DNA of 64,000 bases from Pseudanabaena sp. PCC 6802 (GTDB taxonomy: Bacteria; Cyanobacteriota; Cyanobacteriia; Pseudanabaenales; Pseudanabaenaceae), in assembly GCF_000332175.1 (NCBI RefSeq), contig NZ_KB235914.1, forward strand, positions 1,185,966 through 1,249,965, read 5' to 3'. A program made the position numbers and the translations under genes. Below, piece by piece: positions 5,799 to 9,335 of the stretch. The notes under the pieces are model-generated. The model saw only the letters and a program-made list of their open reading frames with translations. It was not told where the DNA came from and searched no databases. Numbering within the stretch: position 1 is the first letter of the stretch; each line of letters opens with the position of its first letter.

Positions 5799-8700
5799 AT
5801 GGCTACTTCAATGCCTACAGAAGATGATGTTGCGCTAGTTGTTGGGATTGGTGCGTCTGCGGGTGGGCTAGATGCCTTTTCGGAACTGCTCAGCCATCTG
5901 CCAACGGATACAGGCATGGTGTTTGTCCTGGTGCAGCATCTCTCGCCCGGACAGGAAAGCCTGTTAAGCGAGTTATTGGGGCGTACGACTCGAATGCCAG
6001 TTGCAACCGCAGAACAGGGCATGGTGGTACAGCCCAATCACGTATATGTGATTCCCCCCAATGTCCAGATGACGATCGCCCAGGGGCAGTTACAGTTGGC
6101 GGTTTGCGACCAGGCTCAGGGGCGGGTCAAGACCATCGATCTGTTTTTCCAGTCGTTAGCGGCGGATCGAAAAAATAAAGCGATCGCGATCGTCCTATCG
6201 GGTAGCAATAACGACGGAGCCTTGGGAATTCAGGCGATCCGGGAAGAGGGAGGCATTGTCTTTGCCCAGGATCTTAGCAGCGATCCCCCCTTTTCCGATA
6301 TTGACCTGCTGAGTTGCCGCAATGTCTTAATTTACTTTAAGCAGTCGCTGCAAAAGCGAGTTCTATCGTTCTTCCACTACAGTCTCAAACCCACAGGTTT
6401 TTTAATTTTGGGCAATTCCGAGAGTCTGGGAGACACGATCGATATGTTTGATGTGTTTGATGCGCCAGCGAAGATCTATACTCGCCGTGCGGTGCCCTCT
6501 CATCTCAACTTCGATTTCATCGCCAGCTACTATCCCAGAGAAACAGATATGGAAGCGCGGCAGGGCTTTTCCGCCACCCGGAATCGCACCAATCTCCAGC
6601 AATGGGCCGACCAGATCGTCCTCAGCCGCTTCGGTCCGGCGGGTGCGATCGTGAACGAGCAGCTAGAAATTCTGCAATTTCGCGGCGACACCAGCCCCTA
6701 TCTCAGAATCCCGGCAGGCGAACCCAGCTATAACCTGTTGAAGATGCTGCGTCCCAGTTTATCGATCGACGTGCGGATGGCCATTGAAGAAGCCAAGCAG
6801 CAGGGAACGGCGACCCGACGGCGGGGGTTAAAGCTCCAGGACTTAACCGAAACCGATCTGTCTGTGGAGGTAATTCCCTTCCACACCTCGACCGCCCCCG
6901 ATCGCTGTTATCTGATCGTGTTCGAGCGCGAGTCGCCCGAACCCACTGCAATCGTCTCCGACCTGGCAGCAGAAACGGAAGCGGAACTGTTTGAGACCAA
7001 CCCTGAGATCCTGCGACTGCGCCAGGAACTGGCTGCCAGCCGTCAGGAGTTGCTCGATGCCCAAACGCTGTTGCATCTCACCATTGAAGAGAAAGAAGCC
7101 ACCAATCAACAACTGCTCGCAGCCAATGAAGAAATCCTGTCCAGCAACGAAGAACTGAAAAGCACCAACGAAGAACTGCAAACTGCGAAGGAAGAAATTC
7201 AATCTGCCAACGAAGAACTGAAAACCACCAATGAGGAACTGCAAAATCGCAACATCGAAGCCCGTCGGGCGAACGATGACTTAATGAACCTGATCGATAA
7301 TGTCAATATCCCTATCTTGATGTTGTCGGACGATCTTCGCATCCGCCGCTTTACTCCATCCGCCCAGGCCATATTTAACCTGATTCCAACGGATGTCGGA
7401 CGACCAATCGGCGATCTGCGGTTTGATATTATCGCCCCCGACTTGGAAGTGCTAGTGTCCAATACGATCGCCATTCTGAATCCGATCGAACGCGAGGTGC
7501 AGGATCGGCAAGGACATTGGTACGTGTTGCGGATTCGCCCTTACCGCACCGTTGAGAATCAAATTCTGGGGGCGATTGTTGCCCTGGTGGACATTGACAA
7601 TCTCAAGCAAACGGAACAAAGCCTGCGCCTGACTCAGGCACAATTGGAAACCGAACTCGATGCCATCAATCAGGTGCAGGAGCTGAGTTTGCAATTATTC
7701 TCTTCCCTGGATCTCGATCTCATCCTGAATCAAGTCCTGGATGCCGCCATGGGCTTGCTCCATGCTGATATGGGCAATATCCAACTCCTCGACCGCCAGC
7801 GGGGCGTACTGGAGATTGTCTCCCATCAAGGCTTTGGTTCTGAGTTTCTCGACTATTTCCGCGAAGTGGGGGCTGATGATGGCACGGCTTGCAGTCGAGC
7901 ATTGAAGTCCGGTCAACGGGCGATTGTTGAGGACGTACAGACTGACACTGAGTATGCGCCCCACCTTCAGATTGCAGCGGCGGCTGGCTATCGAGCCGTA
8001 CAGTCAACGCCGCTAATCGGTCGCCAGGGGGAATTACTGGGGGTGCTTTCGACCCATTTCCGGCAGCCCCACCGTCCCGCAGAGCGGGAGTTGCGGATGC
8101 TGGATCTTTACGGGCGGATGGTCGCGACCGCGATCTCCCTGATTCAGATCGAGCAAGAGAAACAAGCCCTGGTGGAGCGAGAGCAAAGATCCTTGAGCGA
8201 ACAAGTCCAGGTCGCTCAGGCGGCGAATGCCAGTAAGGATGAGTTTCTCGCCATGCTTTCCCACGAGCTACGCACCCCCTTAACCAGCATCATGAGTTGG
8301 GTTCAGATGATGGCGCGGGGGCTATTGAACGCAGACCAGCAGCAGCAGGCGATCGCTGCGATTCGCGACAGTGCCTTGACCCAAACCAACCTGATCGAAG
8401 ACCTGCTGGATGTTTCCCGCATTGTGCAGCAGCGCTTTCAGATTACCCCCCAACCCTGCGACCTGATGCAACTCTTGCAGCAGGCGATCGCCCAGGTACA
8501 GCCCCAGATAGAGGAAAAGGGATTACACCTGGAGGTTGACCTCCAGCCTTGTCCAGAACGGCTGAATCTCGATCCAAGCCGCATCAGTCAGGCTTTCTCG
8601 AATTTACTGTCAAACGCCATTAAATTTACGCCTAGTGGCGGCAGCATCGCCGTGCGGTCGATCGACGCGATCGCTCAGGTGCAGGTGCGGGTAAGCGACA

Positions 8701-9335
8701 CCGGACGGGGCATTGCTCCCGATCTGTTACCCCACATTTTTGAGCGGTTTCGTCAAGCGGATTCCTCTAACACTCGGCGGGAAGGCGGCTTGGGGCTGGG
8801 ACTTTTCCTGGCGCGATCGTTTATCGAAGCCCACGGGGGAACGATTGTCGCCAACAGTTCCGGGGAAGGACAGGGTGCAACCTTCACCCTTAACCTACCC
8901 AAGGCGATCGCTCAAGCGGTACCATCCTCTCCGCCACCGCCAGCAACGGAGATCGACCTGAATGGCATCAGCATTTTGCTGATCGATGACGATGAAATGA
9001 CCTCGATCGCAATTTCCTTTACCCTGGAACGATTTGGCGCAACCGTGACCGCCGCACGTTCTGCTCCAGAGGCATTGGAAAGGCTCACCCAAATACTACC
9101 GGACTTGATCGTCAGTGACATTGGCTTACCCGATGTCAATGGTTATGACCTGATGCGACAAATCAGAGCCTTGCCACCCGAGCAAGGCGGACAACTGCCA
9201 GCGATCGCCCTCTCAGGCTATGCCGATCGGCAAACTGCGATCGCGGCGCTGGAGGCAGGCTTTCAAACTCACCTGAGCAAGCCAGTCGATATAGACGAAC
9301 TGATAGCCTGTGTATCAAATCTTGTCCGACGCTAA
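5799..9335 (+). CDS. Hybrid histidine kinase with collapsed CheB-CheR module, PAS, GAF, HisKA, HATPase and receiver
   Basis: Domains in order (1,178 aa): CheB methylesterase-like (~12-155) with the catalytic Ser in 'GASAGG', His in 'QHLSPG' and Asp in 'NNDGALG'; then, at the 'FAQD / LSSDPPF' join, only the C-terminal part of a CheR methyltransferase ('DIDLLSCRNVLIYF', 'GFLILGNSESLG', ~158-235); a NEEL-rich coiled coil (~410-490); PAS (~495-600); GAF (~635-770); HisKA with 'SHELRTPLTS' (~825); HATPase with 'NLLSNAIKFTPSGG' and 'GLGLGLFLAR'; and a receiver with phospho-acceptor Asp in 'VSDIGLPD' (~1060-1178). The family normally has a whole CheR with a SAM-binding G-x-S-x-G-E-E motif, which is absent here. 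The ATG at 5799 is preferred over GTG 5796 because of GAGG 8 nt upstream. No chemotaxis genes are adjacent. Confidence 0.9.
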   Translation: MATSMPTEDDVALVVGIGASAGGLDAFSELLSHLPTDTGMVFVLVQHLSPGQESLLSELLGRTTRMPVATAEQGMVVQPNHVYVIPPNVQMTIAQGQLQLAVCDQAQGRVKTIDLFFQSLAADRKNKAIAIVLSGSNNDGALGIQAIREEGGIVFAQDLSSDPPFSDIDLLSCRNVLIYFKQSLQKRVLSFFHYSLKPTGFLILGNSESLGDTIDMFDVFDAPAKIYTRRAVPSHLNFDFIASYYPRETDMEARQGFSATRNRTNLQQWADQIVLSRFGPAGAIVNEQLEILQFRGDTSPYLRIPAGEPSYNLLKMLRPSLSIDVRMAIEEAKQQGTATRRRGLKLQDLTETDLSVEVIPFHTSTAPDRCYLIVFERESPEPTAIVSDLAAETEAELFETNPEILRLRQELAASRQELLDAQTLLHLTIEEKEATNQQLLAANEEILSSNEELKSTNEELQTAKEEIQSANEELKTTNEELQNRNIEARRANDDLMNLIDNVNIPILMLSDDLRIRRFTPSAQAIFNLIPTDVGRPIGDLRFDIIAPDLEVLVSNTIAILNPIEREVQDRQGHWYVLRIRPYRTVENQILGAIVALVDIDNLKQTEQSLRLTQAQLETELDAINQVQELSLQLFSSLDLDLILNQVLDAAMGLLHADMGNIQLLDRQRGVLEIVSHQGFGSEFLDYFREVGADDGTACSRALKSGQRAIVEDVQTDTEYAPHLQIAAAAGYRAVQSTPLIGRQGELLGVLSTHFRQPHRPAERELRMLDLYGRMVATAISLIQIEQEKQALVEREQRSLSEQVQVAQAANASKDEFLAMLSHELRTPLTSIMSWVQMMARGLLNADQQQQAIAAIRDSALTQTNLIEDLLDVSRIVQQRFQITPQPCDLMQLLQQAIAQVQPQIEEKGLHLEVDLQPCPERLNLDPSRISQAFSNLLSNAIKFTPSGGSIAVRSIDAIAQVQVRVSDTGRGIAPDLLPHIFERFRQADSSNTRREGGLGLGLFLARSFIEAHGGTIVANSSGEGQGATFTLNLPKAIAQAVPSSPPPPATEIDLNGISILLIDDDEMTSIAISFTLERFGATVTAARSAPEALERLTQILPDLIVSDIGLPDVNGYDLMRQIRALPPEQGGQLPAIALSGYADRQTAIAALEAGFQTHLSKPVDIDELIACVSNLVRR

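Follow-up and report, generated by a model that had tools for sequence, protein, structure and literature searches.

A gene of 1178 codons at positions 5799-9335 of the window (the whole 64,000-nt stretch of Pseudanabaena sp. PCC 6802 DNA analysed here) encodes a collapsed derivative, not a full member, of the CheB-CheR-PAS hybrid histidine kinases. The collapsed variant is new; the architecture itself is known, and such kinases are widespread in cyanobacteria. In the reading that we regard as likely, a typical kinase of ~1425 aa would have been shortened to the 1178-aa form by one genuine, evolutionarily recent deletion of ~740 nt, through slippage or illegitimate recombination between short in-phase F-A-Q-D (CheB end) and F-A-x-Q-D (CheR) sequences. 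The product would have a dead methyltransferase and a doubtful methylesterase, and its coiled coil, PAS, GAF, kinase and receiver domains would most likely still function as a cytosolic sensor kinase. The features of the gene are as follows.

5799..9335, + strand: collapsed CheB-CheR-PAS hybrid histidine kinase gene, 1178 aa (ORF call and Pfam)
5841..6269, + strand: CheB methylesterase domain, residues 15-157, without the C-terminal 30 profile positions (Pfam)
6258..6275, + strand: putative deletion junction GTCTTTGCCCAGGATCTT, CheB FAQD meeting CheR FAxQDL (sequence and alignments)
6270..6470, + strand: CheR C-terminal stub, residues 158-224 (PF01739 126-193 of 195; Pfam)
6999..7268, + strand: coiled-coil signalling segment (ANEEILSSNEELKSTNEELQTAKEEIQ; alignment)
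7281..7598, + strand: PAS domain (PF13596; Pfam)
7707..8135, + strand: GAF domain (PF13185; Pfam)
8235..8423, + strand: HisKA dimerisation and phosphoacceptor domain (Pfam)
8571..8906, + strand: HATPase_c domain (Pfam)
8973..9314, + strand: response regulator receiver domain (Pfam)

The frame is open throughout, with no stop or frameshift, and Pfam orders its domains as CheB, CheR, PAS_10, GAF, HisKA, HATPase_c and receiver, the last five each being near full length. A coiled coil with NEEL repeats precedes PAS, and HisKA, HATPase_c and receiver are all present. CheB matches its profile from position 1 to 144 of 174 (PF01339, residues 15-160, E 8e-45), with the aligned triad residues present but profile positions 145-174 absent. 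No complete CheR was found in the protein: PF03705 is missing, and PF01739 is matched only over positions 126-193 of 195, at residues 158-224. The preliminary description had placed the break in CheB at GIVFAQD, directly adjoining SDPPFSDIDLLSCRN, and this is exact; the Pfam match to CheB ends at 144 of 174 and that to CheR starts at 126 of 195.

Comparison with intact relatives defines what is missing. The closest full-length homologues among the matches listed, L070 (genome G061, 1417 aa) and L071 (G112, 1421 aa), have the domain order of the window protein through to the receiver and share with it the GAF, HisKA, HATPase and receiver domains. Both contain CheB (1-174 of 174), CheR_N and CheR (2-193 of 195) in full, in agreement with the earlier view that the family form is a full CheB and a full CheR followed by coiled coil and PAS, whereas the window protein lacks these complete domains. 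In common with the cyanobacterial CheB-CheR-PAS kinases it has the N-terminal part of CheB, the C-terminal part of CheR, the coiled coil and PAS. A further relative is found on a plasmid of Nostoc sp. UHCC 0302 (WP_341532095.1, annotated as 'chemotaxis protein CheB'). Absent from the window protein are ~248 residues, comprising the CheB C-terminus, the linker, the whole of CheR_N and those two thirds of CheR that bind SAM. In 56 intact loci, a set in which a few entries are repeated views of one gene, 241-261 residues separate the CheB and CheR sites, and the F-to-F distance amounts to 741-744 nt in the three nearest of the intact genes, which puts the loss near 0.74 kb instead of the ~1 kb first proposed. 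The loss from CheB takes in its last 30 profile positions (Pfam 145-174), including a conserved MP...A.G motif, and the CheR columns of (V/P)GC.TGEE and of the acidic TD loop F.TD, the motifs by which CheR binds SAM, are gaps in the alignment. Window residues 14-161 match the CheB structure 1CHD (12-162) and residues 168-218 the CheR structure 1AF7 (214-264), with 1A2O and 5FTW as further structures of the respective families; in an intact homologue the match to 1CHD extends as far as 196 and that to 1AF7 covers 12-258, and those additional parts are absent from the window protein. Alignment with full-length cyanobacterial relatives, the comparison suggested at the outset, supports an in-frame collapse that removes the methyltransferase core: the CheB C-terminus, the CheR N-terminus and the SAM motif are gone, as first described, with the frame and the kinase domains intact. 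To judge by its sequence, the methyltransferase is dead, both the SAM-binding core and CheR_N having been lost.

At the junction (~6258-6275) the sequence reads GTC TTT GCC CAG GAT CTT. Relatives mostly have GG(I/V)TFAQ at the CheB end and, in equal codon phase, C(V/I)FA(R/K/Q)(Q/H)(N/D)L at the CheR site, and FAQD stands at the CheB end of all three closest intact genes; joining the CheB end to the CheR site yields GGIVFAQDLSSDPPFS. The reading frame would thus have been kept because the F-A-Q-D and F-A-x-Q-D motifs at the two end points lie in one codon phase. Words common to both sites in register measure 2-8 nt in intact relatives, a length that slippage or illegitimate recombination could use. 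Against background, the similarity of the 18-nt sites is not significant in L070 (6-7 of 18 matches) and is mixed in L071 (11 and 5 of 18 matches in the two registers), so that the claim made here is limited to a shared motif and words of 2-8 nt, not a proven repeat. The residue preceding FAQ is V in the window, as in CheR, and T in 54 of 55 other CheBs, and the junction motif is one residue shorter than every CheR motif seen; the joint is therefore either not a simple single crossover or has been retouched by substitution. Two 21-nt arms (window 5846-5866 and 6574-6594), complementary to 86%, form an inverted repeat around the junction region, probably by chance.

Matching words of at most 8 nt at the ends in intact relatives also make an assembly collapse unlikely. 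It could be supposed that the assembler, or a sequencing error, skipped 0.74 kb of a gene that is in reality full length, as a single assembly stands behind the short form and an intact downstream frame could also result by a one-in-three chance. Such an artefact is nevertheless highly improbable, since the few nucleotides that the end points share in relatives fall far short of a read or k-mer, the 6-contig assembly has a completeness of 99.7%, and the CheR core occurs nowhere else in it.

In the host genome (5.62 Mb, 6 contigs, 99.7% complete) no second CheB or CheR was found. Relocation of the lost CheR core within that genome was considered and rejected, the core being found nowhere else there. 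Six MCP signalling domains (L077-L082; G000 C5:3752811-3756650, C1:465942, C5:1798198, C5:1143710, C5:1148612) are present in the host genome, though its sole CheB/CheR matches are those of the collapsed gene.

Homologues of the gene are common in cyanobacteria, with some match in 43 of 58 close relatives when lone CheB or CheR domains are counted, and with a match at E <= 1e-20 in 193 of 388 members of the class. A short-form orthologue would be expected near the top of the listed matches. Among those listed from 538 distinct cyanobacterial genomes, the window alone gave a contiguous match across the junction, and the many orthologues of the same short form that, according to the preliminary description, would have indicated an old architecture did not appear. 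A match in G183 (13-246) only seemed to span the junction, its CheB alignment having been falsely continued into the C-terminus of CheB itself; the gene there is full length. Plasmids gave no short form among 20 listed of 197 records, where matches consisted of two pieces or one domain, and neither did contigs of the viral collection (0 of 6), in which the CheB and CheR motifs lie ~400 residues apart as in intact genes. Among the matches listed from the 538 genomes, these comparisons support the view that the short form is not an established architecture. It might still be an old sub-architecture of a clade outside the sample, as the genomes searched included no congener and close relatives were thus absent from the comparison; with no contiguous match listed from the family, the class, or the orders of G347, G061 and G112, however, we consider this quite unlikely.

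The domains that remain are well preserved. Mean identity to 14 outgroup sequences is 0.60 for the window CheB and 0.55-0.58 for that of three intact ingroup genes; for the stub the values are 0.575 and 0.56-0.60, and PAS, HK and RR are about equal between the window and the intact genes. All columns invariant in relatives are kept in CheB (39 of 39) and in the CheR stub (19 of 19), the stub is 62-77% identical to the three closest intact homologues, and in the downstream domains the window gene is about as similar to intact orthologues as these are to one another. No faster evolution of CheB or of the stub was seen relative to the intact ingroup genes with these 14 outgroup sequences, which suggests that the deletion is probably recent or that the remains are still selected; a single sequence fits both equally, and we take the deletion to be probably recent. 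Perhaps it was even to the cell's advantage to have the kinase without its methylation module, with the chimera under selection. The good preservation of CheB and stub would suit such an adaptive loss, as would the lack of any other CheR/CheB in a genome with six MCP-type signalling domains, but recency accounts equally for the conservation, the form is known from a single genome and intact relatives are widespread, which leaves this proposal improbable.

The putative catalytic residues of the window CheB, Ser20, His47 and Asp139, fall on GAS, QH and NDGA of 1CHD, the motifs that hold the CheB triad, and the statement that CheB Ser, His and Asp are retained is thereby confirmed. The accompanying statement that only methyltransfer is clearly lost was too generous, as CheB also lacks Pfam positions 145-174 with the MP...A.G motif. 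Given the loss of these conserved C-terminal elements, methylesterase activity is not to be assumed and appears doubtful, while the kinase is probably working. The structure predicted for the chimera has pLDDT 70-87 over most of its CheB core (residues 8-157), which matches 1CHD and 3SFT, and the CheR stub lies below 50 without a confident fold. The matching CheR segment reaches ~55-70 in an intact relative modelled on a similarly shallow alignment, where the CheB elements lost in the window are predicted as helix-strand-helix with pLDDT 83-90; with just two models compared, both built from shallow alignments, this is only suggestive.

The best match to the window CheB among the matches listed comes from G347, a genome of another order (77% identity; support in the CheB tree 0.93). 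Its gene (L036:1498-2016) is a 172-aa frame in which CheB residues 1 to ~131 are followed directly by a receiver tail, and which lacks both the catalytic Asp of CheB and any kinase. The C-terminal tail is far closer to that of the window protein than to those of L070 or L071, and together with the tree support this makes it most likely the orthologue of the window gene. The G347 joint reads AAAGCGATCGCCCTATCAGGCTACGCC, and its counterparts in the window, AAAGCGATCGCGATCGTCCTATCGGG in CheB and CCAGCGATCGCCCTCTCAGGCTATGCC in the receiver, both contain HIP1:

6180..6187, + strand: HIP1 octamer GCGATCGC in CheB, at the G347 joining site (comparison with G347)
9201..9208, + strand: HIP1 octamer GCGATCGC in the receiver domain, at the other end of the G347 deletion (comparison with G347)

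HIP1 is thus found at the G347 joint and at both parental sites, insofar as the window gene stands for its parent, and not in this arrangement at the window's own junction. The octamer is abundant in the 64-kb window (116 copies vs 1.5 expected by shuffling), as is typical of cyanobacteria. A link between HIP1 and excision has been reported (Robinson et al. 1997, as cited in PMC4390886), and HIP1-promoted excision as outlined in that citation would take place between GCGATCGC copies, as the G347 joint suggests. The window's own deletion differs from the process so cited (Robinson et al. 1997) in that its joint is not at HIP1; the HIP1 copy in CheB lies ~70 nt upstream of the junction, and HIP1 was rejected as its end point. 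Like the window gene, the G347 orthologue has an apparent in-frame internal deletion at a short, putative repeat, but this deletion is larger, running from CheB to the receiver tail. The missing middle of the gene was not found elsewhere in the G347 genome, which has two other CheR genes.

With its nearest relative gutted by a different in-frame deletion, the gene family can apparently become shorter through loss of internal segments between brief sequence matches, and it is this pair of different collapses, in genes so closely related, that stands out most. One could see in it a gene in early decay, with the kinase already out of use and the G347 remnant as a later stage. The reduction of the nearest orthologue to 172 aa, the disappearance of its middle from the G347 genome, and the fact that a very recent event would leave the same open frame and kept columns are all compatible with decay; the open frame of 1178 aa, the complete kinase and receiver and the retention of almost all invariant columns of relatives make a pseudogene rather unlikely. 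A more general proposal, that the lineage repeatedly sheds domains by in-frame deletions at short in-phase repeats (protein-motif or HIP1) and that the kinase of the window form works while its truncated CheB and CheR stub serve sensory or regulatory, non-enzymatic roles, is put forward tentatively, as something we also hold to be rather doubtful. If true, it would provide natural domain-deletion variants.

No publications on the role of the methyl-writing and methyl-erasing halves, or on the architecture, were found in a limited open-access search, and the natural in-frame loss of one half in a genome without another CheR is a ready-made test of the kinase's need for these halves. The G347 collapse, joined at a HIP1 octamer, would be a natural example of HIP1 as an intragenic deletion end point. 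G126 (C1:4243130-4246785) has a CheB frame (269 aa) and, ~2.7 kb away on the same strand, a CheR-kinase frame (1172 aa), and this homologue may have been split by an insertion.
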